A program made the translations under genes and the position numbers. Of a stretch of DNA of 64,000 nucleotides, positions 1,280 through 57,975 are shown one piece after another. Under the pieces are notes generated by a model. The model made no database searches. It saw nothing but the letters and a program-made list of their open reading frames with translations, and was not told where the DNA came from. The first letter of the stretch is position 1. The number at the start of each line of letters is the position of its first letter. Origin of the DNA: Aquilaria yunnanensis (Eukaryota > Streptophyta > Magnoliopsida > Malvales > Thymelaeaceae); assembly GCA_039654915.1 (NCBI GenBank), contig CM077597.1, forward strand, positions 85,872,001 through 85,936,000. The letters run 5' to 3'.

Positions 1280-2054
1280 TTGATTTAATTTATCGTAATT
1301 ATTTAATTCTTATTATTAATTTTTAGTTTAATTACTAAATTTATCTTTATATTTTTACTTTTTCTTTCTTTCTTTTTCTTCTTATTTTTACTTTTTAATT
1401 TTCTTTTCTTTTCTTTCTTTTGTTTTCTTTTTCTTATCTTTCTTTTCTTTTTCTTATCTTTTCTTTTTTTGATTTTTTTCTTGTTTAATGAAGGATATTT
1501 ATTATTTAAAGAATTACTCAATTTATAAAAGAATTAAAAAAATTAATTTTTTTATTTAATAAGAAGTTAATTTAAAGGAATCAAAGAATTTAAAAAATAA
1601 AAATCTTTGTTCATGGTACGGGGCGTTGTTACTCAGCCAGACCCTCTTCACCAGGTGAAGCAGCTCAAAAGCGGGCACGAGACAGTTTCCAGCCAATATA
1701 CCATGAACTAAATTTTTTTTTTTTTTTTTTTTACTCAACAACATGGTTCAGATTTATTTTTCATATATATTTTTTATGGCTAATTTCTTTAAATGAAATG
1801 AGTTTATCCGTAAAATAAAAAATAACAATAAATAAAGTGGAGGTTTTCTTCTTTTTTTTATTAATTTTTTTTTTGAACATCCATTTAAGAAAATAAACGG
1901 TGCATAAATTAAATAACACATGCAAATAGATAATGGGAAAACACATAAAGTAAACAAAAGAATATCACAAGATGATATATAAATAAATAAAGTGGGGCTT
2001 TTTTTGGCCATCCACTTTTTTTTAAAGAAATGAATAGGAGGGATAACCTTCCAT

Positions 2055-2099
<45 letters not shown>

Positions 2100-2398
2100 T
2101 ATGTTTAATTATGCCTAAGCTTAATGTTAATTTCTAAACGAATTTATGCCTTTAATTTGCTGAACAAAACAAATCCATAAAAGGAAATAAATGCCAATAA
2201 ACCAATGGCCATATTACAAATTAGAACAACATAGGATCTCAATTAGACAAATCAAATAAATGCACGGGTAAAAATTAAAATTATGCTGAAATTATGGACT
2301 TTCATAACTGGGTCAATAACGAGCCGATTTGCGATCCGGGTTTCATTATTTGATTTTTAATTTTTGCTTTTTGTTTGCTTTAAATAATATCAATTAAC

Positions 2399-2439
2399 AT
2401 CCAAACCATGGATTCTAACCGAATCATCTGGATATGGAT
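2399..2439 (-). other. LTR hairpin motif, variant C
   Basis: The stems are ATCCA/TGGAT, CCA/TGG and GATTC/GAATC with a 5-nt loop. A second copy of this variant is at 3058-3098. Confidence 0.55.
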
Positions 2440-3057
2440 TTTTGATTTACTAGTTCTAAATTCATTCTTGAATTTTCATTAAAATCTGTTCAGAATTAAA
2501 TCTCGTAAATATGACCCCTTTTTTTTTTATACGTTATGTAAACATGAGTTTTAAATTTATGCTAACTATTAAAATTAAAATCAAATAAATAGGTAAAAAT
2601 CTGACCTAACCTAAAATTGCAATTTTATGTAATATTGATCACAGACTAATTCATGATTCTCGAAATAATAAACCAACAACAAAAAAAGAAATAAAAACAT
2701 AAAACAATACTGTCAGTGATGAATATGCAAAACAAGAGAACATTAATGACTTAAATGAATAAAAACAAAGAGAATCAAGGGCTAAATGAGAATTTTACCC
2801 AAAAATTTGATTGAGTCAAGAAACAAACGCGAGTCGCGACTGGCGGGCCTTTTTCTCCGGCATATAATCATTCTCGACAGTGAAGAATTTCCTGACGTAC
2901 TCGACGCTCTTGTTCTTGATCCTCTTGGCGATCGTTTGGTTGAGCAGCTCGAGAAGGTCCTTGATTTTGAGGTAGTTGGCGGTGCACGATTGGATTTTTT
3001 TGCTATTTAATTTAATTTTATTTTTATTTTTATTTTTTTTAGATAATTTCAATTAAT

Positions 3058-3098
3058 ATCCAAGCCATGGATTCTAACCGAATCATGTGGACATGGAT
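3058..3098 (-). other. LTR hairpin motif, variant C, second copy
   Basis: The stems ATCCA/TGGAT, CCA/TGG and GATTC/GAATC match those at 2399-2439. The unpaired bases differ slightly (AG for AA). Confidence 0.55.
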
Positions 3099-4405
3099 AG
3101 ATGATCCATCTTAGGACGGATTTCTAATAAATTTAAATATTAATTAACCAATAATTTGATACAGATTAATATATTACAAAAATAAAAATTAAACTATTCT
3201 AAAATCCAATAAATATACATGAATATACATATCAAATCAAAATCCTATATTATTTTCCATGTCGATTCAATGATCAAATTTTAATGAAAGGGAAGGCCAA
3301 TAATAACAAATAAAAACAAAGAAAAGAACATACAATAAAAAGGCTGTTGTCAGTGACTAATCTGCAAGATAAAATATGTTAGTGACTTAAATGAATAAAA
3401 AAAAGAAAGCTAAGGATTAAACAATGATTTTACCCAAAAAAAAAAAAAATCAAAAGTTTGACTTGGTGAATAGTTTAAAAACGAAACGCGTCTTCTTCGC
3501 AGCAGAGGAGCACAGCAGCAGGGGATGCGAGGTGCGATGGATTCGACGACTACGCGGCGTGGAGGGGGCGCGGCCAGCAGGGGATGGACCAGGCATGGAG
3601 GGGCTCGGAGCGAGCACGGCAACAGGGGCGAACGGAGGGGCTGGGACTCAGTGGTGGCATCGGCTGGAGTGGAGGCGCGCGGAAGCGTCGGGCAGCAGGG
3701 AGGCGACCAAGGGAGATGCGGCGAACGGCGGAGGGGCAGTAGGGAGGCGACCAAGGGAGACGCGGCGAACGGCGGAGGGGCAGCAGCAGAGGGAGACGCG
3801 TGCGCGCACAAGGCAGGGAGACGGGCCGACGGCGCGAGGAGGGCGGAGTAGGAGTGCTGTGCGCGTGACGGTGGAAGGGTTGGCAGTGGGGCGAGGAAAT
3901 GGTTATGGCGGAGAAAGTGGGAAGAGAAGAAGAAGGAGGAGCTGAGAGAAAATTTCGTTCGAGGGAGAGAGAGAGAGCTCCAGCTGAGCGTCAGAGAGGG
4001 AAGAGAGCCAGAGCTCTGTGAGAGAGAAGAGAGAAATTTTTTTTTCGAAGAGAGCCCCTGTGAGAGGGAGAGAAGATAAGATTTTCTCTCCAATGATAGA
4101 GGCCTAGAGCCTTCTAAAAATATCCCAGCCTTTCCCCAGGAAGGCTCAGCTGGGGAAGGAATTTTCTGTTTTTAATTTTAATTTTTTTTTAATTTTTTTA
4201 ATTAATTAATAATTAATTAATATTTCTAATACACACATACAGATATATATGTATACCTATATATATATTTTAACTAACACCATATGACAAAAATGTCCCC
4301 CACTAAACTAATAATATATTATTTTTGTTAAATTAATTTTTTTAGTTAATAATTTTTAATTAATTAATTTTTTTTTTAATAGTCGGACGAAATTGGGTGT
4401 CAACA

Positions 4406-7897: not shown

Positions 7898-8737
7898 ATG
7901 AAAGTGGTAGCTTGGAATTTGAGAGGTTATAATAAGCCTTGGAAGCTTTTTGAAATTTTGAAGTCTGCAAATGTAAATAAAATACATATTTTTGCTCTTT
8001 TAAACAGTAGAATTAATGAATCAAGGCTTGTGGAACTGGTTAAGTGTTGGCAAAGGGATTGGAATTTCATAACAAATCATACTTTCCACTTAAATGATAG
8101 AGTTGTTTTTATTTGAAAACATGACCTGCTACTGCATATTGTTGAAGCTAGTGCTCAATGGGTTACAACTATGATTCAAATAAATCCTTCTATTATACCT
8201 ACCTAACCTTTATGTATGGTTTTAATTCTGAGAAGGAGAGGAGAGCCTTATGGAGGGAATTAAACCAGCATCACATAAAGGGGCTATGGATCCTTATGGG
8301 TGATTTTAATATATGGTTTGAAGGAAATCAGAAAGAGATAGCTCCCACCCCATTTTAAAGGTTGAAATTGTTGATATTAATAGGTGTTTTAATGACTTAA
8401 GCCTTAAAGGCTTACCATATGTAGGCAATTTCTTTGCTTGGTATAATCATAAGAAGGCATACCATGTAGTGTGGAACAAGTTGGACCTTGTCATTGCTAA
8501 TGTAGAATGGTTACAATCTACCCATCCACTCAGGTGAAATTCTTGACTCCTTCCTTATTCGGTTATTCACCAATGTTTGTGTCTATTCATGAGGAGATTG
8601 TTGGAAAATAAGGCATTTCAAATTTTTAAATATGTGGTTGGAAGACCCCAGTCCCATCACTGTATTAATTTGGAGAGGATTAAGTTGGAGCCGGAAAAGC
8701 TACAGAGGTGAGACTTGCAAACATCCAAGTAAAGGTG
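7898..8737 (+). pseudogene. LINE ORF2 remnant, endonuclease domain (left half of split LINE)
   Basis: The frame opens MKVVAWNLRGYNKPWKLFEI, the usual start of the plant LINE apurinic-type endonuclease, and contains the later ILMGDFNIWFEGNQKE segment (DFN motif). It is broken by stops, the first near 8115. At 8737 it is interrupted by the 15.3-kb LTR element and continues at 24061 with the reverse transcriptase region. Confidence 0.75.
8733..8737. repeat. Target-site duplication AGGTG (left)
   Basis: AGGTG directly precedes the LTR end at 8738 and is repeated perfectly at 24056-24060. This 5-bp duplication marks integrase-mediated insertion into the LINE. Confidence 0.9.
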
Positions 8738-11020
8738 TGTGGCAACGTGCGGGTCTTTTTTTGGGAGTCGCCACCAATCAGTTTTCGCTCAGGTCGATTG
8801 GATACCTTAAAATATGGTCTGCGAGAGTTCGGGGATCGGGAGTACGGTTACGCTAAAACAATATTGTTATAGCGCCCAAAATTGGCACCTTAGTTGATTT
8901 TAATTTTGTCTTACTTTGCTTTTAAAAATTTTCAGTTAATTTAGATATTTTAACTGAATTAGTCGAAAATGTTGATTTTTGGTAATTAATTCGGGTAAAA
9001 ATTTTATACTTCCGAACCATGGACTCTGCCGAGTCATTTGGACACGGAAGATTTTGATTCCGAACCATGGACTCTGCCGAGTCATTTGGACACGGAATTT
9101 GGTGAAATTTTAAATAATTTAATCCATATCGTAAAATATGAATTTTTATCTTTTGTATTTATTTAATTTATTTAATTAAAAAAAATTGATATTTTCCAAA
9201 CCGTAGATCCTGCCGGATCATCCGGATATGGAAATTATTTTTTATTAATTGTTTATTTAATGAATTTTAGTCATAATTTTTATTTTATTATTTTATTATT
9301 TTTCTTGAATTTTTAATTATTATTACTTTTAAAAAATATATTTAAAAAAAACAGAATTGATTTTTTGTTGTATTTTTAGAATTATTCAATTATAATTTTT
9401 TAATAATTTTAATAAAAGGTTAATGAAAAAAAATAAAAATTGATGTTTCAAAATAATGAAGATTTGAAATAACGACGGATGGGGATTTTTGTTTGAAAAA
9501 TATTTTTTTTGATAGCCTTAAAAATGAAGAAAGTTAATTATTCACATAAAACTTCTTTTTTTTTTAATTAATTATTATTTACTTATTGATTTTATTTATT
9601 ATTAAATAAGTGAAATAAATTTTATCATAAAGTAAAATTTTGGCATAAAAGGAAAATTAAATAAAGTAAAGTAAAGGGGATTTTTTTTTTTAGTTTAGAC
9701 ATCCATAAAAAAATGCATAAAATAACACATGTAAATAAATAAAGGGAAAACATATAAAGTAAATAAAGGAATATTAAAGAATAAATAAATAAAGTGGGGC
9801 TTTTTGACCTTCTACTTTTTTAAAAATTAAATAACATATTCAAATAAATAAATAAACAAATAAAAAGTACATAAAGTAAATAAAGGAAAGTTAAAGATCA
9901 ATAAATAGTAAGCAAATAAATAAAGTGGGGCTTTTTTGGCCATCCACTAAAAATAAATAAATAGGAGGTATAACCTTCCATGAATTATTATAATAATAAT
10001 AATCATAAAGATAATAAAAGTTAGTTGTTAGAATTAGTTGTTAATAACAATAATAATAACAATAATAAAAGTTAGTAAAGTTAGTTGGGTTAGTTGTTAA
10101 CAATAATAACAATAAAAGTTAGTAAAGTTAGTAAATTAGTAAGTTAATAATAATAATAACAACAATAATTAAAGGTTAGTAATAATAACAATAATAAACA
10201 AATAAAATGTAAAAGAGAGTTAGTAATTAGTTAATTCTGCAGAAATAAATAAAAGGTTAGTGACTAAAATGAATAAATATGAGAAGATGAAGGATAAAAA
10301 ATGAGGTTGTACCTTTTGAAAATGAATTTTGAATTCCGGAGCAGAGGTGCGCGCGCGGGGGTGAAAAAAAAAAAAAAACAGTTAGAGAAGGTTTAGGTTT
10401 TCTGGAGAGGAAGAGAAGAGGGCCAGGGACCTAGGCTAATTTTTTCCTTTTTTTCAAAACGAAGCTCTAAGTTTTTTTTTCTCATTTTCTCTGTGTTCAG
10501 CACAAAATTTGGGGGGCTATTTATAGAGGAAGTTTGGCTGAACTGTTGATGGATAAATTAATAAAAAATTTCAAACTTATCTTTTAAATTGGTAAAATGA
10601 CAATTTTAGTCCTTTACGTCTCTCAGCCTCTGGATAAGTTCCTGAAGCTTCTGATTTTGACAATTTTGTCGTTTTCTGTCAATTTGCGCCAGAAACGTCG
10701 GCAGGCCCAAAATTTTATGTGACAAACTACCAAATGCTCCTGGAACTTTCAGAATTTGTCAATTTTTCCCGAAACTTCTTAATGTTGTCATTTTTACCTC
10801 AAACTTTTAAATTTTGCCATTTTTTGGAGTTTTCTTTTTTTCTTTCAAATACACACATATATCATTTTAAATCAAATCTTCACAAAAAAAATGTATTTTA
10901 AACTAATTAAAATTTTTAGTAATAATAATAAGAATAAAAATAATAATTTTTTTTTATTTAATTTCTTTTATTTAATTTCTTTTAAAATTTTTTATGGTCG
11001 GACGAAATTAGGTGTCAACA
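8738..11020 (-). repeat. 3' LTR of central Tat-like element
   Basis: It is bounded by TGTTGACACC and GTTGCCACA on the minus strand and is 2283 bp long. It holds two copies of the GACTC/GAGTC hairpin (9010-9049 and 9058-9097) and one GATCC/GGATC hairpin (9193-9234), where the 5' LTR has only one of the first type. A TATA box, CTATAAATAG on the minus strand, lies near 10510-10520. Confidence 0.92.
9010..9234 (-). other. Three LTR hairpin motifs
   Basis: Copies lie at 9010-9049, 9058-9097 (stems TTCCG/CGGAA, CCA/TGG, GACTC/GAGTC) and 9193-9234 (TTTCCA/TGGAAA, CCG/CGG, GATCC/GGATC). They fall in the R/U5 part of the LTR, downstream of the TATA box, so they are likely present in the RNA. Confidence 0.6.
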
Positions 11021-11035
11021 GCTGCCCCCCTTTGC
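11021..11035 (-). promoter_or_regulatory. Polypurine tract
   Basis: The minus strand reads GCAAAGGGGGGCAGC directly before the 3' LTR. This purine run is the expected plus-strand primer and confirms the orientation. Confidence 0.8.
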
Positions 11036-11109
11036 ATGCTTCATGAGACATGATGTATGCAAAGTCGTTACCAAATTTCGTCCGGCTTAGCTAGGCATTG
11101 AAAACCTTT

Positions 11110-12450
11110 TCGCCGCCTAAATCCTGAGGTTAAGGAACTCTCCTTAGAACCCCGGCGATAGGAGCTCTCCTATCGTTGAAGGAAAATTGATTGTTTCTGA
11201 GGCAAAGGTTCCATCCTTAAAACCTCGGATTGATTGATTGATTTCGAAGCAAAGGTTCCATCCTTAAAACCTCGAATTGATTGATTGATTTCGAGGCAAA
11301 GGTTCCATCCTTAAAACCTTGAATTGATTGATTGATCTCGAGGCAAAGATTTCATCCTTAAAACCTCTGATTGATTGATTGATTTCGAGGTAAAGGTTCC
11401 ATCCTTAAAACCTCAGATTGATTGGTTGATTTCGAGGCAAAGGTTCCATCCTTAAAACCTCGGATTGATTGATTGATGTCGAGGTAAAGGTTCCATCCTT
11501 AAAGCCTCGAATTGATTGATTGATGTCGAGACAAAGGTTCCATCCTTAAAACCTCGGATTGATTGATTGATGTCGAGGTAAAGGTTCCATCCTTAAAACC
11601 TTGAATTGATTGATTGATCCCGAGGCAAAGGTTCGATCCTTAAAACCTCGGATTGATTGATTGATTTCGAGGCAAAGGTTCCATCCTTAAAACCTCGGAT
11701 TGATTGATTGATGTCGAGGTAAAGGTTCCATCCTTAAAACCTCGAATTGATTGATTGATCTCGAGGCAAAGGTTCCATCCTTAAAACCTCGGATTGATGA
11801 AAATTGATTATTTTCGAGGCAAAGGTTCCATCCTTAAAACCCCGATGATGAAAATTGATTATTTTCGAGACAAAGGTTCCATCCTTAAAATCCCGACGAT
11901 GAAAATTGATTGTTCTTCGAGGCAAAGGTTCCATCCTTAAAACCCCGATGATGAAAATTGATTGTTCTTCGAGGCAAAGGTTCCATCCTTAAAACCTCGA
12001 TGAAAATTGATTGTTTTCGAGGCAAAGGTTCCATCCTTAAAACCCTGATGATGAAAATTAATTAATTTCGAGACAAAGGTTCCATCCTTAAAATCCCGAC
12101 GATGAAAATTGATTGTTCTTCGAGGCAAAGGTTCCATCCTTAAAACCCCGATGATGAAAATTGATTGTTCTTCGAGGCAAAGGTTCCATCCTTAAAACCC
12201 CGATGAAAATTGATTGTTTTCGAGGCAAAGGTTCAATCCTTAAAACCCCGATGATGAAAATTGATTATTTTCGAGGCAAAGGTTCCATCCTTAAAACCCC
12301 GATGATGAAAATTGAATGTTTTCGAGGCAAAGGTTCCATCCTTAAAACCCCGATGATGAAAATTGATTCTTTTCTAGGCAAAGGTTCCATCCTTAAAACC
12401 CTGATGATGAAAATTGATTTTGAGGCTAAGGAGCTTTCCTTAGGACCTCG
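11110..12450. repeat. Minisatellite array, about 46-bp unit, in the element's 3' UTR
   Basis: About 27 imperfect units share the core 'aaaggttccatccttaaaac'. Left units have 'gattgattgattgatt' spacers and right units have 'gatgatgaaaattgatt' spacers, so two subarrays are visible with a switch near 11800. Long frames across it on both strands are by-products of the repeat. Tandem arrays just upstream of the PPT are known in Tat-lineage elements and are described as a source of satellite DNA. Confidence 0.9.
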
Positions 12451-12966
12451 AGCGAAATTTATATGAAAGCAATTGAAATTGGAATAATTTTCTTCGAAAG
12501 TGTGAATTTTCATAATAGGCGAGCGCAAAGAATTAGGCTTCGATAAAACGAGTGAATCTTGATGATGACAATAACACTGACAAATTATGTAAAGGGAACA
12601 GATGTTTGGAATCAATATTCAAGGTTCATATAATATTTTCTTCAGTAAATATAGATTCCCTTGTGAGATATGTCATCCGAATAAGGTTAAAGCTTAACTA
12701 CCCCAAAATGTTATGCCTAGTAGACCTAATAGGATGCGTCTCAAGAGTAACAAAAATTACTCTTTACTCAGCCATTCCAACCTAAAGGCATTGTCCTATG
12801 GTTTTAATATCAGCCTGGACGAAACTATATTATAAAAAAAAGAAATTCCCTAAAAGGAAAAACTGAAACGCGAAAGAAAATGCTGATAATAAAACTAAAG
12901 GACAAGAAAAACGGATCAGATCGCTTCTTTCTTCCACAATACTTCAACAGGGTGAGTAGAGGACCA
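12451..12966. other. LOG 3' flank, no gene
   Basis: This sequence lies between the LOG-like stop codon and the minisatellite. No frame, repeat or clear polyadenylation cluster can be assigned. Confidence 0.4.
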
Positions 12967-13596
12967 TTATGGGAGTGAACTGGTCGGGAAAGACTGTCGT
13001 GTCCAGTCTATCTGAATCATTGCTGGATCTGGTTCAGGAACAAAAGCTTGTATTTTATCTAGCAATTCTTCAGCAGTTGTTGCGGATATTATGATTCGCC
13101 GTGCCACTCTTGATATGAAATTCTTCTGCATAGCATAATCCATAAAAGCTATCAGACCTGTAAAGAAATTGTTAACATTTAAAAGCCCAATGAGTTTCTT
13201 ATGCAAATTAAGTTGGGCCATGGAAGCAATTTGAAAGACTTCTCCCAATGTGCCAAAACCACCTGGTAAAGCGATAAAAGCATCAGCATTTAAAAGCATT
13301 TGTAACACACGCTCTTGCAAATTTTTAACCACTAATTCTTCTCCAATCGTGCCCCCAGAAATAAATTTCAGAGGTCCAGGGATAATGCCCAGAACTTGAC
13401 TTCCTCCTAGAGATGCTGCTGATGCTACACCTCCCATTAATCCGACACTACCTCCTCCATAAACTAAATGTATTTTTCGCTCAGCTAATACTCTACCCAA
13501 ATGGTTGGCTGCTTTTAAATACTCTTCATCTTTTCCAGGAAAAGCCCCAGAAAATACACAAATACTTCGGGATTTCCGAGTTGGGGTTTTCTCCAT
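12967..13596 (-). CDS. LOG-like cytokinin riboside 5'-monophosphate phosphoribohydrolase, captured, intronless
   Basis: The protein has 209 residues. It starts at the ATG at 13596, where MEKTPTRKSRSICVFSGAFP matches the usual LOG start; an in-frame ATG 29 codons upstream adds an unrelated tail. LOG enzymes release free active cytokinin from its nucleotide by cleaving ribose 5'-phosphate. The Rossmann-like LVYGGGSVGLMG, the arginine before the motif (QERVLQM), and PGGFGTLGEVF, fitting PGGxGTxxE with its last Glu, are all present. Plants commonly have TLEE where this has TLGE. Length is normal and there is no stop or frameshift. Host LOG genes contain introns and this copy has none, which suggests capture through RNA. 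It lies on the sense strand of the retrotransposon, downstream of the three NABP-like frames, with a TATA box at 13627-13637. Activity is not proven. Confidence 0.88.
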   Translation of the reverse strand: MEKTPTRKSRSICVFSGAFPGKDEEYLKAANHLGRVLAERKIHLVYGGGSVGLMGGVASAASLGGSQVLGIIPGPLKFISGGTIGEELVVKNLQERVLQMLLNADAFIALPGGFGTLGEVFQIASMAQLNLHKKLIGLLNVNNFFTGLIAFMDYAMQKNFISRVARRIIISATTAEELLDKIQAFVPEPDPAMIQIDWTRQSFPTSSLP

Positions 13597-13626
13597 TCCT
13601 ATCCTTACCCTTATGAGAAAAGAGGA

Positions 13627-13637
13627 TATATTTATAG
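13627..13637 (-). promoter_or_regulatory. TATA box upstream of LOG-like gene
   Basis: The minus strand reads CTATAAATATA about 31 nt before the ATG, which would leave a very short 5' UTR. The preceding TTATCTCTTCATCT resembles the sequence before the TATA boxes of two NABP-like copies. Confidence 0.5.
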
Positions 13638-13679
13638 AGATGAAGAGATAAGGCAATAATTTTATTTTCAAGAATGGAT

Positions 13680-14090
13680 ACATTATTGCCAGCTATTCAC
13701 AGTAGTCACGAGTATGACTCTGGTCAGGTATGGGTACATTATCGTTAAAAGAGGAGGAAAATTTTCAAAATAGCTGCTAGCATGTACAGTAGTCACTACT
13801 GTAGCTTACGTCAGGAGTGGGTACGTGATTGTTGGAAGAGAAGGAAAATTTTAAAAAGTGGCAGCTATATACAGTAATCATAACTGTATCTCATGTCAGG
13901 AGTGGGTACATTATTGGGAGGATAATTTCAAAAGCGACAGCTAGCATGTACAGTAATCGTGACTTTGGTTCACCTCAGGAGTGAATACATTATTACCAAA
14001 AGGGGAGGAAATTTTCAAAAGCGACAGCTAGCACGTACAGTAATCGTGACTTTGATCCTCGTCTTCCACAGGCTTTGCGTCCAGTAATGG
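13680..14090. repeat. Tandem repeat, about 100-bp unit, upstream of LOG-like gene
   Basis: Four to five imperfect units each contain 'cagcta', 'gtacagta', 'tcaggagtgggtac' and 'ggaaaattttcaaaa'. A perfect palindrome, TACAGTAGT-C-ACTACTGTA, lies at 13785-13803. The unit also occurs once in each spacer between the NABP-like copies (near 14810 and 15645), so it belongs to the promoter/intergenic module of the cargo genes. Confidence 0.75.
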
Positions 14091-14102
14091 CTTCAATGCT
14101 TT

Positions 14103-14651
14103 CTATGAATCGGTGATTTGCATTTCATCTAGCTTTCTCACAAACTGGCAAACAGGGTCGTTTAGGGTCAAATTCCCAAGACTGTAACGATCTCGTTCTT
14201 TTTGGAAAATTATCCATAATCCAACAACCTCAAATTGCACTATTCCGCAAGAATGCGCTTCAAGAACCTCTCGAATATCTTCTAGAGATTCCTTACGCAA
14301 GCCATTCTTAATGAATCTTATTCTATCATTACGATTTCTGGTGATCACTCCTGGAGAACGACATTTATTGCCGCAAATCCACCATCCACAATTATGACAA
14401 ACGCCTAGCCTCTTTGCTCTTCTTTTTTTGGCATAAGCGCTTTTACCAAAGCCGGGCATACGGGGAAAGAACGCTTCTGGAACTTCACCAGCTGAACGAA
14501 CCTTAGCTTCGATTAGCCACCGCACATTATCAGGAATGCCTTTGTGCATAAATACTCTGAATCATTCACATCTAGCTTGATAAATCTTTTTAAGAACATT
14601 TATTGGGAAGGAAGGAAAATACTTTCGTAGGGCGGAAAGAGAAGACTCCAT
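14103..14651 (-). pseudogene. NABP-like Cys-finger protein, copy 3 (premature stop)
   Basis: This 549-bp frame is collinear and equal in length with the intact copy at 14876-15424. It starts at the ATG at 14651-14649 and has a premature TGA at 14564-14562 (codon 30). An internal ATG at 14549, five codons after the stop, could give a 148-residue product that keeps the basic block (YAKKRRAKRLG) and the Cys finger (CHNCGWWICGNKC). The long C-terminal domain ends NDPVCQFVRKLD as in the other copies. It is the copy nearest to the LOG-like gene. Confidence 0.7.
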
Positions 14652-14714
14652 TGATGAAGGAGGTATTTAAGAGAAGAAAGAAATTAATGATTGTAGGAAA
14701 CGGAAATAACTAAC

Positions 14715-14743
14715 ATATATTTATAGTGATGAAAGGGATAATG
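14715..14743 (-). promoter_or_regulatory. TATA module upstream of NABP-like copy 3
   Basis: The minus strand contains TTATCCCTTTCATCA followed directly by CTATAAATATAT, about 65 nt before the ATG. Almost the same block precedes the intact copy at 15545-15570. Confidence 0.5.
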
Positions 14744-14875
14744 CGTTAATTACACTTGCAGAAGCAAGTACATTATTGTCAAAAGAAAAGACAAATGACA
14801 GCTTATATGTACAGCAATCATGACTGTGGCTCTCATCTTCCCCTGATTTATGTCCAGTAATGGCTTTAATGCCTT

Positions 14876-15424
14876 CTATAAGTCGGGGATTTGCTTCCCA
14901 TCCAGTTTTCTTACAAACTGACAAACAGGATCGTTTAAAGTCACATTCCCAAGACTGTAACGGTTTCGTTCTTTATGGTAAGTCCTCCATAAACTGATAA
15001 TTTCACCTTGCACTTTTCCACAAGAATGTGTTTCAAGAGTCTCTCGGATATCTTCCAGAGATTCCTTACGCAGGCCATTCTTAATGAATTTTCTTTTATC
15101 TTCACGATTTATGGAGATGTATCCTAAAGAGCGACATTTAGTAATGCAATTACATCGCCCACATTTATAACACACGCCTAGTCTCTTTGCTCTTCGCCTT
15201 TTGGCATAACGGCTTTTACCTAAACCGGGCATACGGGGCATAAATGCATCTGGAACTTCACCTGCCAAACGGACCTTAGCTTCAATTATCCACTGCACAT
15301 TATCGGGAATGCCTTTGCGTGTAAAAACTCTGATTCTTTCACATCTAGCAAGGTAGATCTTTTTAAGGACTTTTATTGGAAGGGAAGGAAAGTATTTTCG
15401 CAGTGCAGAAAGAGTAGAATCCAT
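14876..15424 (-). CDS. Viral-type nucleic-acid-binding-protein-like (NABP-like) protein, intact copy
   Basis: The frame is intact at 182 residues. In order it has an N-terminal helical segment (MDSTLSALRKYFPSLP, then KIYLARCERI); a basic block at residues 70-83 (GKSRYAKRRRAKRLG); a Cys cluster at 85, 88, 91, 93 and 97 (CYKCGRCNCITKC); a segment containing DKRKFIKNG; and a C-terminal domain of about 60 residues ending NDPVCQFVRKLDGKQ. A Gly-Lys-Ser/basic block followed by a short Cys finger and a Phe-Ile-x-x-Gly segment is the layout I associate with the small 3'-proximal nucleic-acid-binding proteins of carlaviruses and vitiviruses, some of which suppress RNA silencing. The C-terminal extension is not part of that family as I know it. 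The assignment is by pattern and unverified; an unrelated plant zinc-finger protein is the alternative. Confidence 0.65.
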   Translation of the reverse strand: MDSTLSALRKYFPSLPIKVLKKIYLARCERIRVFTRKGIPDNVQWIIEAKVRLAGEVPDAFMPRMPGLGKSRYAKRRRAKRLGVCYKCGRCNCITKCRSLGYISINREDKRKFIKNGLRKESLEDIRETLETHSCGKVQGEIISLWRTYHKERNRYSLGNVTLNDPVCQFVRKLDGKQIPDL

Positions 15425-15544
15425 TGATGAGAGAAGAATTTGAGAGAAGAGGGAAATGAATCAGTTATTGTAGGAGACTGGAATAACCGACTTTAGAAGT
15501 CACGAGGTATCTTATCCGCTGCTTAATCAGAAGGAAGAACACGC

Positions 15545-15570
15545 ATTTATAGTGATGAAAAGGGATAACG
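15545..15570 (-). promoter_or_regulatory. TATA module upstream of the intact NABP-like gene
   Basis: The minus strand reads TTATCCCTTTT followed by CATCACTATAAAT, about 120 nt before the ATG. The block matches that before copy 3 and partly that before the LOG-like gene. A TGAGTCA (bZIP/AP-1-like) site lies further upstream near 15670. Confidence 0.5.
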
Positions 15571-15713
15571 TGTCGATTACACTTAGGGGAGCATGTACAT
15601 CTGTCAAAAGAAAATGCAAACTTTTCCAAATATAACAAACTGTATGTACAGTAATTGTGACTGTGACTCACATCTTCCACTGGCTTTACATCTAGTAACG
15701 GCATTAACGGCTT

Positions 15714-16262
15714 CTATGAGTCGAGGATTTGCTTCCCATCCAGTTTTCTTACAAGCTGGCAAACAGGGTCATTTACAGTCAGATTCCCGAGACTGTAACG
15801 GTTTCGTTCTTCATGAAAAATGCTCCATAAACCAAGAAGTTCACGTTGCACGGATCCACAAGAATGCGTCTCAAGAGTCAATTGGATATCATCCAATGAG
15901 TCCTTACTCAGGCCATTCTTAATAAATCGTATTTTATCTTCTCGATTATCAGAGATCATCCCTAAAGAACGACATTTAGTATTACAAGTCCACCGTCCAC
16001 ATTTATGGCAGACTTGTAACCTTTTCGCTCTTCACTTTTTGGCATAAGAGCTTTTGCCTATACCAGGCATGTGAGACACAAATGTCTCTGGGATTTCACC
16101 TGCCAGACGAACCTTGGCTTCGATTAACCACCGCACATCTTCAGGGATTCCTTTGTGCATCAGAACTCTTAATCGTTCACAGCGAACTTGGTAGATCTTT
16201 TTGAGAATGTTCATTGGGAGAGAAGGGAAATACTTTCGCAAGGCGGAAAAAGTAGGATCCAT
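15714..16262 (-). pseudogene. NABP-like Cys-finger protein, copy 1 (premature stop)
   Basis: This is a 549-bp frame collinear with the intact copy, starting at the ATG at 16262. A premature TGA at 16034-16032 (codon 77) falls inside the basic block, right after GKSSYAKK. The frame then stays open to the normal end (NDPVCQLVRKLDGKQ), so it is one nonsense change and not a degraded copy. The starts of the three copies are 838 and 773 bp apart, and the spacers are similar too, so the gene and its upstream region were duplicated as one unit. Confidence 0.7.
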
Positions 16263-16402
16263 TTTCTAGGAGGAAGTAAAAGAAAGAAGGGGTGAAGGAA
16301 TCAGTTATTATGGGCAACTGAGAGAACCGACTTGAGAGTCACGGAGTACCGTATCCGCCGTTTAACCGGAAAAGTGGATCCTACTTCATTTTGATGTGAT
16401 AG

Positions 16403-16418
16403 ATATTTTTTATATTCC
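16403..16418 (-). promoter_or_regulatory. Possible TATA region upstream of NABP-like copy 1
   Basis: The minus strand reads GGAATATAAAAAATATC followed by ATCACATCAAAATGAAG. It is weaker than, and not the same as, the module before the other two copies. Confidence 0.25.
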
Positions 16419-16419
16419 A

Positions 16420-16775
16420 TCGAGCTGACGTCGATCCAGTCCTCGATTATTGAATCCATTGTCCGCTTTTGACAAATTTTCAACGACAATATTTCTTGAT
16501 GTCTGCCTTATCTTTGACTATCTCTTATCTTGGATGCTGCTAAGCTGGCATCAATCCTGTCCTTCCAGGTGTAGCCTCGATTATTGAATCAATTGCCAGG
16601 CTTTTGACAATATTGTCTATTTTATATATTTTTTTTGATATCTGCCTTATCCTTGGCTATAGCTATCTCTTATCTTGGATACTACTAGCTGGCGTCAATC
16701 CGATCCTTCCAGATGTAGTCTCGATTATTGAATCGGTAGCCAAGCTTTTGACAATATTGTCTACTTTATTCTTGA
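16420..16775. repeat. Tandem repeat, about 145-165-bp unit
   Basis: Two and a half units share 'tgccttatcttggctatctcttatcttggat', 'ctggcgtcaatcc', 'gtctcgattattgaatc' and 'cttttgacaatattgtct'. The array lies inside the retrotransposon, just upstream (sense) of the NABP-like triplication. Confidence 0.7.
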
Positions 16776-17734
16776 ATTCCTGATGCGGGTTGGTCCCGCA
16801 TATTAGCTGTGTATCCAGTGATAGATTGGTAAGAGCTGATGACATTGAGATCTCAGCTTATATTGCTGTAGCTGTGCCGTAGATGTGCTTCCCGTTTGGT
16901 CCTTGTTATGTAAAGGCTATGTATGCATGATATGAAATGCATGAATGCAGAGCATGTGTAACTAATGGCTTTTTTTTTTTTTTTTATGGATCTAGTTCTT
17001 TATGTCTTTGTTTTACTGGATCCTTTTTGTGATGGCCTTCTTGGACTATCATTGAATCTTTTTATGCCTTCCAGCTTTTATTCGCTGCCTCAAAAGCCCA
17101 ACTCTTTTCAAAATCCTCTTTCTTTGACTTGTTCTTTGAATTTTGGCCTCAATTTCTTTAAAGTTGGCCCGCCTCATAATTTATATCTCTTTCGGGTACT
17201 CATCCATTGTCATGGATTTGATACCATCAAATGCTTTACTTTCAATGTCTGCTTTGCCCCTTTTCTTGTGACCGTGCCGACACTTACTTATTCCCATGTT
17301 ATAATCTGAATGATTGCTCTTCCTTGAACTCATGTTTTGATCCATAAGACTTGCCCCCTTGTCTATTGAACTTCTTTGTTGGCGGTACTCCTCTTATGCT
17401 TCGTAGAGACTACTTTGCCCCCCTGAATATGGTGTTTATGTGGAAAGAGATATCATCTCGCCTTTGATTTAACAGAAGGTCGAGCATTTCTAGACCTTTG
17501 TGATGGCACTTGATCGTAAATTTCTCTTACAAGAACCACATCTTATTAAAGAAAGACTCAAGCTATGTCCTCACTTTTAAGTCTACATACATTAATGAAT
17601 AATGGTTTGGCCTTAAAGAAAAACTTTCATCAATTTGCAAAGCTTGACAAAGTAATTTACGGTCTTTGTTTTTAATTAAAATATCCTGCCATTCTTCCCT
17701 TTCCAACTCGAAGACATAAACTGTGCAAGGCAAT
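16776..17734. other. Internal region of Tat-like element, no gene recognised
   Basis: The sequence is of mixed composition, with a T tract at 16969-16985 and G-runs on the minus strand near 17350 and 17416. One plus-strand frame (16965-17309) begins in the T tract and looks like chance. No pol motif was found on either strand. Confidence 0.5.
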
Positions 17735-18450
17735 AAGGTAGAAACATGATTTACAATAATAGCCTTTTAACTGACAGAGGATGATATCGAGAGGTAAATG
17801 TTAGGTGTGAGGAAAGTTAAGTTTGAATGTTTTTTTTTTGTGGCAGTCTTTTAGCTGAATGAGAATAATATTAAGAGGTAAATATTAGGTCTAAGTAAAG
17901 TTAAGTTTGAGTGGTGTGAAAAAAAGGGTCTTTTAATACTATTCGTGAGCAGCATTAAATAAGGTAGAAACATGATTCACAATGATAGTCTTTTGACTGA
18001 ATGAGGATGTTAGGTCTGAGGAAAGTTAAGTTTAAGTGGTGTGAAAGAATGGTCTTTTAATACTACTCGTGAGCAGTATTAAATAAGGTAGAAACATGTT
18101 TCACAATGATAGTCTTTTAGCTGAATGAGGATGATAAGTCTGAGGAAAGTTAAGTTTAAGTGGTTTGAAAGAAGGGTCTTTTAATACTACTCGTGAGCAG
18201 TATTAAATAAGGTAGAAACATAATTCACAATGATAGTCTTTTAGCTGAATGAGGATATTAAGTCTGAAGGAAGTTAAGTTTTAATGGTGTGAAAGAAGGG
18301 TCTTTTAATACTACTCGTGAGCAGTATTAAATAAGGTAGAAACATAATTCACAATGATAGTCTTTTAGCTGAATGAGGATATTAAGTCTGAAGGAAGTTA
18401 AGTTTTAATGGTGTGAAAGAAGGGTCTTTTAATACTACTCGTGAGCAGAT
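17735..18450. repeat. Tandem repeat, about 120-bp unit, six copies
   Basis: Each unit contains 'aaggtagaaacat', 'cacaatgatagtctttt', 'gaatgaggat', 'gaaagttaagttt' and 'actactcgtgagcag'. The last two units (about 18200-18450) are almost identical, which suggests recent expansion. The array is inside the retrotransposon, between gag and the cargo genes. Confidence 0.85.
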
Positions 18451-18639
18451 TTGATTATGGTGAAAAACTCAATAGTGATGACTTCAAACTTGCCACCTTT
18501 TCCAGAAAGTTTGATCTCATCTGTTGCCCCCCAACTATCGTAATCTTTATGTACACTTGGTTTGAGGGTTACTTTTGTTTTCTAAACCGCCTTTGCAGGT
18601 TTTCAGTCTAGAATCCATAGCTCACTTTTTCTATCTTTT

Positions 18640-18795
18640 TTCTTTTGCTCTAGTTTGAGCCCTTTTTTTCCTTTCTCTTTTTTTGTTTTTGTTTTTGTTT
18701 CCCTTTTTTTTTTTGTTTTGTTTTGTTTTTTTTTTTGTTTTGTTTTTTTTTATATATTTTTTTTGTTCCTTTTTTTTTTGTGTGAGCTATGGTGA
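18640..18795. repeat. T-rich/TTTTG low-complexity tract
   Basis: Long T runs are broken by 'ttttg' and 'ttttc'; on the sense strand this is an A-rich region. It has no coding content. Confidence 0.8.
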
Positions 18796-19275
18796 TGACA
18801 TATTTGATAACTTTCTTGAAGTGAGATGACTCAAGTGGCCTTACTTGCTCGTGCTTGTTCTCAGTTCTTTTTGGTTTTGAATTTTCCCTTGTTGGCTTTT
18901 TGATGGAAGGGATGAACTTTTTCCTTTTCGGAGTTTTTGTTACAGAGAACCGAGATCATAGCCTTCTTGAAATGAGATGATTCAAGTGGCCTTACTTGCT
19001 TGTATTTGCTCTCAGTCTCTCTTTTTTTTTTTGGTTTTGAATTTTCCCTTGTTGGCTTTTTGATGGAAGGGATGAACTTTTTCCCCTTTTTTTTTTTGGA
19101 GTTTGTGTTATGAAGAACCGAGATCGTAGCCTTCTTGAAGTGAGATGACTCAAGTGGCTTTATTTGCTTCTCAGTCTCTTTTTTTTTTTTGGATTTTCCC
19201 TTTAATGGCTTTTTGATGGAAGGGATGAACTTTTTCTTTTCGGAGTTTGTGTTGCGGAAAACTGAAAACCTTTTT
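18796..19275. repeat. Tandem repeat, about 160-bp unit, three copies
   Basis: Units share 'tagccttcttgaagtgagatgactcaagtggc', 'ttcccttgttggctttttgatgg', 'aagggatgaactttttc' and 'cggagtttgtgtta', each with its own T tract of variable length. The flanks resemble one another, so the array grew by unit duplication. Confidence 0.8.
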
Positions 19276-19852
19276 TTTTTTTTTTGAGCATTTATGAGAA
19301 TTGGAAAGCCACTGAAGTCATTTAATATGAGAGCTACCTTGTTTGGAAACTAACCCCAAACTTCTTGCAAGGATGTTGATAACCACTGTGAATTCTTTTT
19401 TAGGGTTGAGGTGCAACATATGAAATCCTTCTTACTAGATTTGGCAGCACTTTCAAGATCATTACTATCAAATTTCCCTTAACTTTTTATTTTCACCCAC
19501 GAGTAGTATCATTTAGAAAGCAAAGTATGATAGCAATAATGGATAGTATAATGGAAAGAGTGTAAAAATGGAAAGTAGTAGAATGCACGCATCACATCTT
19601 TTTGTTGTACCAGAAAAAGAATAGCAGGTGTCCATTTAACAAAGACTACACCCTAGATTCTGGACTAAATCTAGGAGATTTTTACTATTAGATTACTTTT
19701 GCAAGCTTTCAAAGATACAAGTTTATTCAAAGGATTCCCTGTCATTCGAAAATGTATGCGGACTGTTAGGTCAGATCTGACTTGGAGGCCTTCCAAAGTC
19801 AATGTAATTCTAGCTCGAAATCTTCACTTTTCAATTATCAATCACATCGGGC
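19276..19852. other. Sequence downstream of gag, no gene recognised
   Basis: Protease would be expected here in an autonomous Tat element. I see no retropepsin or RT motif in any frame, and only short frames are present. Confidence 0.5.
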
Positions 19853-20749
19853 CTAGCAACTTGGACTTGGTTTTGCTTGATGAGGCGGCAATGGATTGTG
19901 GGTGACATTTGGCTCATCGGAAAAGTCCAACCACTTTGACTCGATTAATTGTTGAACTATGCGCTTCAATGCCATGTAGTTTTCCAAGCCATGGCCTGGA
20001 ACACCATCATGATATGGGCAGGTAATGTTAGGGTCATACCACCTTGGATATGGGGGTTTGAATGGCTTTGTAGGAATTGGACGGATAAATTGTCTTTCGA
20101 TGAGTTTTGGGTATAACTCAGTATAAGTCATGGAAATTGGTGTGAAAACTTCTCTTGGTCTTGGTGCAGGTACTGGAGGAGTAGGAGCAGGTGGCCATGA
20201 CTGATTAGGTCTGTTAAAAGGATAATTGTTGGGCCTATTGGAAGGATAATCATTGGGCCTATTTGGAGGATAATTATTGGGCCTATTCAGAGGATAATCA
20301 TTGGGCCTATTTGGAAGGTAATTATCGGGCCCATTGGCAAAATAGGATAGGCGAGGTCCGATAGCCACAGTATCCACGAGGGGAATCCTTCTTCCGTGTC
20401 CTATTTGTTGTACTTCGTCATCTTTTCTTCTGGATGGTCCTCCTCTTTTCATAGGATTATTAAAGGATTCAGCAATATTCCCAGTCCTAATCTCATGCTC
20501 GATTCTTTCTCCAGACATGACAATGTTAGAAAAATTAGTTACCGAATTGCCAATGAGTTCGTCATAATATAGGTACTTCAGTGTCTGGACAAACAAAGTG
20601 ACCATTTCTCTTTCTGTCATGGGTGGCTGAACTTGTGCTTCTTGAATTGCTTTCGCCTTGATTAGCTCGATCAATTTTCTCATTTGTTCGGCCATACTTT
20701 CTATCTTGGACTCTATCTTTATGAGACGTCCTTCGATTTGTTCTGCCAT
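19853..20749 (-). CDS. Tat/Ogre-type Gag, shortened, core region missing
   Basis: The 298 residues begin MAEQIEGRLIKIESKIESMA, a coiled-coil-like start. They then run straight into the Tat Gag segment VQPPMTEREMVTLFVQTL and TNFSNIVMSGERIEHEIRTG. A PNRPNDYP-type repeat (about residues 140-175), a Pro-rich linker, FTPISMTYTELYPKLIE and the segment PPYPRWYDPNITCPYHDGVP follow. In known Tat Gag proteins the capsid-like core lies before the QPPM segment; here it is absent, so an internal deletion is likely. The CxYHxGxxGHxxEx(C) knuckle has Tyr for the last Cys (GLENYMALK). The frame also stays open upstream of this ATG, so the start is uncertain. Confidence 0.75.
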   Translation of the reverse strand: MAEQIEGRLIKIESKIESMAEQMRKLIELIKAKAIQEAQVQPPMTEREMVTLFVQTLKYLYYDELIGNSVTNFSNIVMSGERIEHEIRTGNIAESFNNPMKRGGPSRRKDDEVQQIGHGRRIPLVDTVAIGPRLSYFANGPDNYLPNRPNDYPLNRPNNYPPNRPNDYPSNRPNNYPFNRPNQSWPPAPTPPVPAPRPREVFTPISMTYTELYPKLIERQFIRPIPTKPFKPPYPRWYDPNITCPYHDGVPGHGLENYMALKRIVQQLIESKWLDFSDEPNVTHNPLPPHQAKPSPSC

Positions 20750-20824
20750 TAATCTTATTTGGAGCCGAGTTGAATATCGGTGTCGAGGTCCAATTTTATC
20801 CCTTTTAAAAGTAAGGTATATTTT

Positions 20825-21070
20825 ATTAGATCCTATGTGTATGTGATTGATGCAATGGATGCATGTAGGAAAAATGAGATTATGTTTTTATCAGACTTTG
20901 TATACACGTGATTAATGTAATGGATGTATGCAATGAGATTATGTTTTTATCAGACTTTATATGCACGTGATTAATGTAAGTGATTAATGTAATGGATGTA
21001 TGCAATGAGATTATGTTTTTATCAGACTTTATATGCACGTGATTAATGTAATGGATGTATGCGATGAGTG
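20825..21070. repeat. Tandem repeat, about 60-bp unit, in leader
   Basis: Three to four units contain 'gattatgtttttatcagactt' and 'cacgtgattaatgtaatgg' followed by 'atgtatgc'. They lie between the PBS-side leader and gag and carry a repeated G-box-like CACGTG. Confidence 0.8.
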
Positions 21071-21436
21071 AATTTGATTATCCACTATCGTGGAACTTCA
21101 AGACTTTTAGTTGTTATTAAAAAGACCAAAAAGTTAGCATAGTTTGATGCGTGGTTTTGATGCATGAAGAATATTTGCACAAAACAGAAGTATAACAAAA
21201 GAAAGATAAGTTTATTAATAACTCAAATAGCAATTAACAACTCATGAACTATTATGGAAAAATGAGTTAAAACCATAAATACGAAAATAAAAGTGTAGAG
21301 CAACAACACAGCATAACAAGGATATGCTTATGGCGTTGGTAAATGGGAGGAATACTATGGTCAGTTCTATGGTTAAGTGGGGAGTTCTATATGCATAAGG
21401 TGGCTTATTAAAAAGGCAAGGGATAGTTCCCGAATC

Positions 21437-21459
21437 CCGTCACTAAATTATAGTGACGG
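21437..21459 (-). other. Conserved leader hairpin
   Basis: A 9-bp perfect stem CCGTCACTA/TAGTGACGG with a 5-nt loop is kept from 413-435 of the other Tat-like copy, with only a loop base changed. It lies about 340 nt downstream of the PBS on the sense strand, where dimerisation or packaging signals are expected. Confidence 0.5.
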
Positions 21460-21798
21460 CCCGATTCCTTACCCTCTAGGGTTTATGTAAGGAATGGATT
21501 AATTCGAGTCGTAGCTTTTCGTGGGCCCATGCAGAGACTAACCGTCTCAGGAGGCAATACACTACTTTGCTACTTTGAAACCGGTGAAGGCTTAGAGACC
21601 ATGGCCTCACAAGGACAACAACACCAATTCCGCTTAGAAAAAACGTGTTCGATTTCGAGGAAGCTCGGGTATAGAGCTTCATGTCGTGAATGCATAATGC
21701 ATGTTTTCGCTAAGTAAATATAGCATATAAAAATCCACATAAAAAGAAGCAAAGCAAAACAAAACAAATCAAGTTTTAGGCTCGACTCACTAACCGTG

Positions 21799-21816
21799 TC
21801 CCCAGTGGAGTCGCCA
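21799..21816 (-). promoter_or_regulatory. Primer binding site of central Tat-like element
   Basis: The minus strand reads TGGCGACTCCACTGGGGA, separated from the LTR by GCT. It is identical to the site at 774-791. Confidence 0.8.
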
Positions 21817-21819
21817 AGC

Positions 21820-24055
21820 TGTGGCAACGTGCGGGTCTTTTTTTGGGAGTCGCCACCAATCAGTTTTCGCTCAGGTCGATTGGATACCTTAAAATATGGT
21901 CTGCGAGAGTTCGGGGATCGGGAGTACGGTTACGCTAAAACAATATTGTTATAGCGCCCAAAATTGGCACCTTAGTTGATTTTAATTTTGTCTTACTTTG
22001 CTTTTAAAAATTTTCAGTTAATTTAGATATTTTAACTGAATTAGTCGAAAATGTTGATTTTTGGTAATTAATTCGGGTAAAAATTTTATACTTCCGAACC
22101 ATGGACTCTGCCGAGTCATTTGGACACGGAATTTGGTGAAATTTTAAATAATTTAATCCATATCGTAAAATATGAATTTTTATCTTTTGTATTTATTTAA
22201 TTTATTTAATTAAAAAAAATTGATATTTTCCAAACCGTAGATCCTACCGGATCATCCGGATATGGAAATTATTTTTTATTAATTGTTTATTTAATGAATT
22301 TTAGTCATAATTTTTATTTTATTATTTTATTATTTTTCTTGAATTTTTAATTATTATTACTTTTAAAAAATATATTTAAAAAAAACAGAATTGATTTTTT
22401 GTTGTATTTTTAGAATTATTCAATTATAATTTTTTAATAATTTTAATAAAAGGTTAATGAAAAAAAATAAAAATTGATGTTTCAAAATAATGAAGATTTG
22501 AAATAATGACGGATGGGGATTTTTGTTTGAAAAATATTTTTTTTGATAGCCTTAAAAATGAAGAAAGTTAATTATTCACATAAAACTTCTTTTTTTTTTA
22601 ATTAATTATTATTTACTTATTGATTTTATTTATTATTAAATAAGTGAAATAAATTTTATCATAAAGTAAAATTTTGGCATAAAAGGAAAATTAAATAAAG
22701 TAAAGTAAAGGGGATTTTTTTTTTAGTTTAGACATCCATAAAAAAATGCATAAAATAACACATGTAAATAAATAAAGGGAAAACATATAAAGTAAATAAA
22801 GGAATATTAAAGAATAAATAAATAAAGTGGGGCTTTTTGACCTTCTACTTTTTTAAAAATTAAATAACATATTCAAATAAATAAATAAACAAATAAAAAG
22901 CACATAAAGTAAATAAAGGAAAGTTAAAGATCAATAAATAGTAAGCAAATAAATAAAGTGGGGCTTTTTTGGCCATCCACTAAAAATAAATAAATAGGAG
23001 GTATAACCTTCCATGAATTATAATAATAATAATAATAATAAAGATAATAAAAGTTAGTTGTTAGAATTAGTTGTTAATAACAATAATAATAACAATAATA
23101 AAAGTTAGTAAAGTTAGTTGGGTTAGTTGTTAACAATAATAACAATAAAAGTTAGTAAAGTTAGTAAATTGGTAAGTTAATAATAATAATAACAACAATA
23201 ATTAAAGGTTAGTAATAATAACAATAATAAACAAATAAAATGTAAAAGAGAGTTAGTAATTAGTTAATTCTGCAGAAATAAATAAAAGGTTAGTGACTAA
23301 AATGAATAAATATGAGAAGATGAAGGATAAAAAATGAGGTTGTACCTTTTGAAAATGAATTTTGAATTCCGGAGCAGAGGTGCGCGCGCGGGGGTGAAAA
23401 AAAAAAAAAAACAGTCAGAGAAGGTTTAGGTTTTCTGGAGAGGAAGAGAAGAGGGCCAGGGACCTAGGCTAATTTTTTCCTTTTTTTCAAAACGAAGCTC
23501 TAAGTTTTTTTTTCTTATTTTCTCTGTGTTCAGCACAAAATTTGGGGGGCTATTTATAGAGAAAATTTGGCTGAACTGTTGATGGATAAATTAATAAAAA
23601 ATTTCAAACTTATCTTTTAAATTGGTAAAATGACAATTTTAGTCCTTTACGTCTCTCAGCCTCTGGATAAGTTCCTGAAGCTTCTGATTTTGACAATTTT
23701 GTCGTTTTCTGTCAATTTGCGCCATAAACGTCGGCAGGCCCAAAATTTTATGTAACAAACTACCAAATGCTCCTGGAACTTTCAGAATTTGTCAATTTTT
23801 CCCGAAACTTCTTAATGTTGTCATTTTTACCTCAAACTTTTAAATTTTGCCATTTTTTGGAGTTTTCTTTTTTTCTTTCAAATACACACATATATCATTT
23901 TAAATCAAATCTTCACAAAAAAAATGTATTTTAAACTAATTTAAATTTTTAGTAATAATAATAAGAATAAAAATAATAATTTTTTTTTTATTTAATTTCT
24001 TTTATTTAATTTCTTTTAAAATTTTTTTATGGTCGGACGAAATTGGGTGTCAACA
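21820..24055 (-). repeat. 5' LTR of central Tat-like element
   Basis: The 2236-bp LTR is bounded as the 3' LTR is and followed by AGGTG at 24056-24060. Hairpins lie at 22092-22131 and 22227-22268 (in the latter one loop base differs from the 3' LTR). The second copy of the first hairpin type present in the 3' LTR is absent here. Confidence 0.92.
23550..23559 (-). promoter_or_regulatory. TATA box of the 5' LTR promoter
   Basis: The minus strand reads CTATAAATAG, followed by CCCCCCAAATTTTGTGCTG. Transcription would start near 23525, giving a U3 of about 530 bp and a long R/U5 of about 1.7 kb that includes the hairpins. Confidence 0.6.
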
Positions 24056-24060
24056 AGGTG
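24056..24060. repeat. Target-site duplication AGGTG (right)
   Basis: It is a perfect partner of 8733-8737. Confidence 0.9.
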
Positions 24061-57972: not shown

Positions 57973-57975
57973 AAC

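Follow-up and report, generated by a model that had tools for sequence, protein, structure and literature searches.

We asked why a plant retrotransposon should carry a LOG-type gene beside several genes of a family known from plant viruses. The locus that raises this question lies in a stretch of 64,000 nucleotides of Aquilaria yunnanensis (assembly GCA_039654915.1, contig CM077597.1, positions 85,872,001 to 85,936,000), hereafter the window. A long terminal repeat (LTR) retrotransposon occupies positions 8738-24055 of its minus strand, and its presence was confirmed. Read from the 5' LTR, the element consists of a primer binding site (PBS), a gag remnant, repeats, three genes for nucleic acid-binding proteins (NABP copies C, B, and A), the LOG-type gene, a 47-bp array, a polypurine tract (PPT), and the 3' LTR. 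The minus strand carries gag, NABP, and LOG genes alike, so the cargo has the sense of gag. We find that this cargo belongs to the element. Our preferred reading, to which we give a probability of about 0.5, is that it forms a conserved accessory cassette of a young Tat family and would help the element by stimulating host cells to proliferate and weakening their capacity to silence it.

The preliminary description had placed LOG-like and NABP-like frames on the sense strand of the element, and it was right on both coordinates and directions. A profile search gave matches to PF03641, PF05515, and PF01623. The LOG gene is intact and encodes 209 aa from its ATG (12967-13596, minus strand; stop-to-stop frame 12967-13692), with an E-value of 1.9e-28 against PF03641. 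The motif PGGxGTxxE is present as PGGFGTLGE, with R96 upstream and E119, which we take to be catalytic residues, and it is found in 107 of 120 listed relatives. The structure model has the LOG fold; its closest known structure is a LOG with bound AMP, and other structures score within one Z unit of it. These data support membership of the LOG phosphoribohydrolase type I family, with a predicted activity on cytokinin nucleotides. In a phylogenetic tree, the window LOG and one relative (P0121) form a pair with a long branch, placed within a large group that is separate from two Arabidopsis LOGs. As branch support within this group varies, the bootstrap had not converged, and the tree comprised few host LOG genes and left aside 5 of the 120 listed relatives (those over 260 aa), no origin was drawn from it. 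The relatives P0129-P0240 include LOG-like proteins of Reevesia pubescens, closely related, numbering in the dozens, and spread over many chromosomes; they are probably transposon copies annotated as genes.

The three NABP genes follow each other in tandem on the minus strand. Copy B (14876-15424) is intact and encodes 182 aa, and copies A (14103-14651) and C (15714-16262) each have an in-frame stop in the window. The frames at 14103-14561 and 14876-15460 match PF05515 (E-values of 4.3e-6 and 1.3e-6) and PF01623 (4e-5 and 3.6e-5), all over the curated cut-offs; the remaining frame of copy C after its stop (15714-16031) has an E-value of 0.16 for PF05515, below the cut-off. The proteins contain a basic stretch and a four-cysteine finger, whose residues C85, C88, C93, and C97 are nearly invariant over 59 aligned rows. 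The finger pattern C-x2-C-x4-C-x3-C occurs in 104 of 120 listed relatives and the basic run in 103. The matches support a kinship with the virus-type NABP and Carla_C4 families, from which nucleic acid binding and silencing suppression can be predicted.

To place the cargo in its genomic context, we searched the whole assembly (842 Mb in 345 contigs). Allowing up to 2 mismatches in 33 bases, motifs of LOG, NABP copy B, and reverse transcriptase (RT) have 2,148, 2,058, and 897 sites, and the reversed patterns none. We fetched ten other places at which copy B is 99% identical, one of them (C3b) also for its adjoining LOG place. In each of the ten, NABP copies C, B, and A are followed by LOG, as in the window, and four include a fourth NABP (D). 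Each also has a pair of LTRs, which are 97-100% identical where they align (several with a partial LTR in the stretch), and the three copies that were read closely have their own 5-bp target duplications. The preliminary description had named two findings that would count against it, a lack of other LTR copies with this cargo and a cargo block due to an assembly join or a separate later insertion. The ten copies and the roughly 2,000 motif sites contradict the former, and the shared order within LTR pairs of their own, three of them with target duplications, rules out the latter. In the first 4.26 Mb of one contig (C1), 11 of the 15 exact copy B sites are followed on the same strand, after 1.9-2.2 kb, by a LOG site with up to 1 mismatch (10 of 14, plus a pair at the edge).

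The genes are mostly open across these copies. LOG is full length in 10 of the 11 compared copies, the window's included, and truncated in C3b; by the same count NABP A (182 aa) is full length in 8 and NABP C in 7. Genome-wide, where only the best-scored places were considered, stop-free frames 99% identical to copy B were found at the other 149 of 150 places. Likewise, among the Carla_C4 candidates scored, 134 of 150 pass, including six that contain an internal stop, and 145 of 150 scored LOG domains have no stop.

What kind of element carries this cassette is best seen in a relative on another contig (L012, contig C8). Its gag-protease frame (Retrotrans_gag, G-patch) stays open over at least 1,125 codons and includes two stretches that by eye resemble zinc knuckles (CxxH...H...C); its pol of 1,144 aa comprises RVT_1 (165-323), RT_RNaseH (415-517), RVT_3 (582-692), and rve (858-955). 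After pol come four intact 182-aa NABPs and then LOG, which places the cargo downstream of pol and ahead of the 3' LTR. This rules out the idea, put forward in the preliminary description, that the cargo takes the place of pol: the window copy has no pol. The succession of RT, native RNase H, additional RNase H, and integrase is the mark of the Tat lineage (PMC10508981). It is present in the pol of this relative, and the elements have the TG...CA LTRs and 5-bp target duplications general for such elements. The family is thus supported as a Tat lineage of Ty3/gypsy elements through the dual RNase H of its pol-bearing member. Such members are common, since an exact RT motif lies 4.7-5.4 kb upstream of 20 of the 38 listed copy B places on contig C1 (0.06 expected at random). 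At all 40 scored places, again the best-scored ones, the pol frame is whole and without stops. Among the fetched copies there is a graded loss: L012 retains pol, two copies (from the group of L016, L018, and others) match most of gag-protease and lack pol, and others have shorter pieces of gag, with the cassette present in all.

In the window element itself, gag core, protease, and pol were not found, and it is therefore not an autonomous LTR retrotransposon. It is a pol-less, gag-deleted derivative. The preliminary description of a complete Tat-like element was accurate for the LTRs, PBS, PPT, target duplication, and lineage, but not for completeness. The 3' LTR (8738-11020; the element runs right to left, on the minus strand) and the 5' LTR (21820-24055, minus) measure 2,283 and 2,236 bp, have TG...CA ends, and differ by 14 mismatches over 2,234 aligned positions (0.63%) and 51 gap columns. 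With about 1.3e-8 substitutions per site and year, the element would be some 0.2-0.3 million years old. Flank comparison shows the target duplication AGGTG on either side (8733-8737 and 24056-24060). The four elements compared have the duplications AGGTG, GTTTC, CTTAT, and CCCTC, and all keep the PBS and LTR ends. The PBS (21798-21819, minus) begins GCTTGGCGACTCCACTGGGGAC, and its first 21 bases are the same in the three closely read copies; the presumed tRNA type is tRNA-Arg. The PPT, AAAGGGGGGCAGC (11021-11033, minus), adjoins the 3' LTR; GGGGGGCAGC likewise closes the internal regions of the copies on C6 and C8, and on C7 it is shifted by one base. The gag remnant (19853-20887, minus) corresponds to residues 2-58 and 263-511 in the gag-protease of L012, and 124-bp tandem repeats (17796-18540) lie between it and the cargo. 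Between LOG and the PPT lies a 47-bp tandem array of 25.5 copies (11186-12431), which was matched in all ten fetched copies.

We compared ten LOG copies of equal length (the window's included, the truncated C3b dropped) and obtained a pooled dN/dS of 0.106 over 45 pairs, which shows purifying selection on LOG at the level of its codons. The pooled values are 0.188 for NABP C (7 copies), 0.217 for NABP A (8 copies), and 0.053 for NABP B (11 copies), the last biased by the choice of copies; between the NABP paralogs of the C8 copy, dN/dS is 0.19-0.39. Relative to the window copy, the identity is 90.5-99.4% for LOG, 96.7-99.1% for A, 93.3-97.8% for C, and 98.9-99.3% for B. For the LTR ends it is 80-93% (nine copies; C7 was unmatched) and 85-99%, and for gag 82-99%. 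By these alignments the cargo is in most comparisons, though not in every one, better preserved than the rest of the element. Selection may not be the sole cause: because the mean synonymous distance of LOG is as low as 0.06, the cassette has probably also been passed between LTR subfamilies by recombination.

The cassette may have its own control signals. The motif TATAAA[TA] lies within 150 bp upstream of the LOG start in all 11 copies, 40 or 48 bp before the ATG (40 bp in the window), where chance would give 9-12%. With the same chance level, it precedes 26 of 35 NABP starts, namely all the scanned A, B, and D starts. In addition, a 19-bp motif, AGTCAYGATTACTGTACAT, occurs five times in the window when up to 3 mismatches are allowed, against an expectation of 0.02; each of these places is in the cassette and in gene sense. 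One follows each NABP (among them those at 14807-14825 and 15644-15662) and two (13867-14051) fall within the amplified repeats of about 85-87 bp that precede LOG (13687-14054, minus). Across the ten copies, at up to 5 mismatches, there are 4-8 places in the cassette stretch, the number varying by copy, and none in the first 7 kb of the 5' stretches. Since the copies share descent and the NABP unit was tandemly duplicated, the recurrence of this motif and of the TATA boxes amounts to few independent events. We propose the 19-bp motif as a candidate control element, possibly bound by the NABPs.

Relatives of the NABPs reach well beyond Aquilaria. We collected 141 proteins; the plants named among the 120 listed are Xanthoceras, Acer, Rhamnella, and Orobanche, and a search with the 82-residue core adds Populus, Parasponia, and Striga. 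Relatives of about 182 aa occur in several eudicots. One Rhamnella protein (P0083) joins an NABP and a LOG; both parts are seen by alignment and in a precomputed listing, whereas the profile scan at an E-value of 0.01 gave LOG only. Three contigs longer than 2 kb agree in size between the lists of NABP and LOG relatives (8723, 4511, and 2128; P = 0.0002 by jittering), which suggests that relatives of both genes share those contigs. In two further proteins (P0081 and P0108) the NABP is fused to other pieces. Pfam shows the NABP part only, and P0081 is listed under the name of a reverse transcriptase domain protein; by their sequence signatures, the fused pieces are putatively an Athila-type integrase and protease. 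Because of these fusions, the cassette may reside in both the Tat and Athila lineages.

Two scans of IMG/VR returned 19 and 15 pattern matches, none of which was confirmed as a viral relative. The core, derived from six sequences and kept to 82 residues so that shorter viral proteins would qualify, gave 625 hits at E-values up to 10; the 120 listed are all PF01623 and include no virus name, most being nameless, and viral kin may lie among the hits of lower rank. The NABP genes described here are not encoded by a flexivirus genome but lie inside LTR elements.

How much of this is new? The carlavirus-type cysteine-rich proteins, such as p12 of Chrysanthemum virus B, resemble the NABPs in having a basic stretch and a zinc-finger core (PF05515 and PF01623, in copies A and B). 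The proteins described here differ in that they reside in retrotransposons, have 182 aa with extra N- and C-terminal parts, and number three or four per element compared. A LOG family gene carried by a parasite has a precedent in the fas locus of Rhodococcus fascians, which would raise host cytokinin; it sits on a bacterial plasmid, whereas here the vehicle is a genomic transposon. Within plant retrotransposons, Steinbauerova et al. (2011) reportedly found two Athila-like elements with similarity to LOGL4. A LOG-type domain, YgdH, has been described in the gypsy consensuses of two Citrus species and, in unfiltered data, of Populus (PMC9289625), which agrees with the 2011 study. Those elements are alike in having a LOG-family extra domain, but no NABP partner was seen in them, and the main text of that paper has no occurrence of 'NABP' or 'nucleic acid binding'; the family described here has a Tat-type relative with dual RNase H, several NABPs before LOG, and TATA boxes. 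The same source reports Phalaenopsis gypsy elements with an AlkB RNA demethylase, likewise an accessory domain common to RNA viruses and kept by a gypsy lineage; there it is one enzyme of measured activity (PMC9289625), here a multi-gene cassette of two types with predicted activities. The Retand elements and other members of Tat share the lineage, a long region from pol to the 3' LTR, tandem repeats, frames after pol, and non-autonomous members, but Retand has antisense TRP28 frames where this family has NABP and LOG genes in sense orientation, neither of which is found in the searched text of that source (PMC11963269). In our literature searches, from which subscription papers were largely outside coverage, there was no report of an NABP in a retrotransposon. 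The preliminary description knew of no element with this combination, which is new only in part, as LOG in gypsy elements is already published (PMC9289625). From the earlier YgdH reports and the lack of an NABP report, what is new is therefore confined to the NABP part, its pairing with LOG, the promoters, and the scale.

What could the element gain from such a cassette? LOG enzymes activate cytokinin, and the LOG of this family could release the active form from its nucleotide in the cells that express the element. If the cysteine-rich proteins of carlaviruses are a guide, the NABPs would move into the nucleus and bind nucleic acid, with an effect on growth genes or on RNA silencing. The p12 protein of Chrysanthemum virus B suppresses silencing weakly and acts as a transcription factor that induces hyperplasia, and the NABP of sweet potato chlorotic fleck virus suppresses silencing (PMC12172455). 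A combined effect on cytokinin and silencing is thus plausible by analogy with what is described for such proteins (PMC12172455). The TATA boxes and the 19-bp motif could allow transcription of the cassette independently of the LTR, and pol-less copies such as that in the window might still express it while being mobilised in trans by pol-bearing relatives. A rise in cytokinin and a change in silencing would both favour an element that needs to be expressed and copied in dividing cells.

Several observations weigh against this reading. The NABPs match the viral models weakly (24-29 bits) and over the basic-plus-zinc-finger core only, their C-terminal part matched no Pfam model in the profile scan, and their structure model is poor (pLDDT of 61.9). 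In the window, two of the three NABPs (A and C) are broken, with B intact, and NABP D has a pooled dN/dS of 0.427 (4 copies). None of the 9 scanned NABP C starts has a TATA box (two more C starts escaped the search pattern). The cargo is not uniformly better kept: gag is 98.4-98.8% identical in C5 and C55, as alike as the cargo, and LOG falls to 90.5% in C3b and 95.4% in C3a. Pol was found in only one of the ten fetched copies (L012), and 4 of the 15 copy B sites and 7 of the 18 listed LOG sites in the C1 stretch have no partner in the lists. Lastly, the sample of ten copies biases the statistics of copy B, and copies, paralogs, and promoters are related by descent rather than independent.

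Among the alternatives, the main rival keeps the cassette within the element's own replication: the NABP would be an RNA/DNA chaperone or packaging protein and LOG would tune nucleotide pools during reverse transcription, with no effect on hormones or on the host. The finger and basic run shared by most listed relatives (104 and 103 of 120), the likeness of the LOG model to an AMP-bound LOG (tied within one Z unit), and the presence of several NABPs per element, as if dosage mattered, all speak for it. Yet the gag-protease of L012 already has its two knuckle-like stretches, by eye, and separate TATA boxes are more in keeping with a regulated accessory function than with a structural one; we regard this rival as less likely. 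A neutral passenger, captured once and hitch-hiking with a successful element, is disfavoured and in our view unlikely. Gene capture by plant LTR elements has been described (PMC7264820) and two window NABPs are broken, but a passenger would sit poorly with the low dN/dS of LOG and NABP, the 145 of 150 best-scored LOG domains free of stops, the greater likeness of the cargo than of the LTRs in most comparisons, and the occurrence in several eudicots of NABP relatives that are about 182 aa long.

That the module is kept for the benefit of the host, for which the element would be a vehicle supplying, for instance, a reserve of LOG genes, could explain the great number of intact LOG frames. Hundreds to thousands of near-alike sites with intact pol frames look selfish, however, and the four closely read elements keep PBS, LTR ends, and target duplications, which makes host benefit quite improbable. 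We consider a remnant of an integrated RNA virus hardly credible, and it too is disfavoured: the two Pfam models met by the NABPs are named for plant viruses, but the genes lie inside LTRs with target duplications, the IMG/VR scans gave no confirmed relative, no virus is named in the 120 listed of the 625 core hits, most of them nameless, and among frames of at least 80 aa no sign of a replicase or coat protein was seen by eye, no profile search having been made for these.

An accessory cassette acting on host growth and silencing remains our preferred reading. A bolder extension of it, which we hold doubtful, is a eudicot-wide growth-reprogramming module in which the NABPs and a cytokinin-activating LOG would travel together with promoters of their own, the NABPs would bind and regulate the cassette through the 19-bp motif, Tat and Athila elements would exchange it, and host cell division would carry new insertions to the germ line.

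The window holds traces of two other elements. Positions 340-4405 belong to a second, related one: 340-1100 matches 21364-22131 (91%), the start of the LTR at 8738 has its match in 795-1371 (88%), and positions 4396-4405 hold GGTGTCAACA, an LTR-type end. This part looks like a longer 5' LTR whose internal region lies beyond the left edge. Another LTR-type element spans 49542-61334, with direct repeats at 49542-52904 and 57976-61334 that are 98.5% identical over 3,363 bp. Between them, the minus-strand frames 53183-54007 and 54008-55975 are by eye integrase- and reverse transcriptase-like.

Extra genes are common in plant Tat elements and mostly of unclear use. Here they are of two recognisable types, conserved, present at about 2,000 sites, and associated with intact pol in relatives. 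The results also tie a flexivirus protein family to the retrotransposons of several eudicots, which bears on the origin of the viral proteins, and they call for caution with LOG-like annotations in plant genomes, which may be transposon genes. The growth-reprogramming module, if true, would be to retrotransposons what growth genes are to gall-forming bacteria. This family offers a direct route to ask whether transposons steer host growth and silencing in order to multiply.

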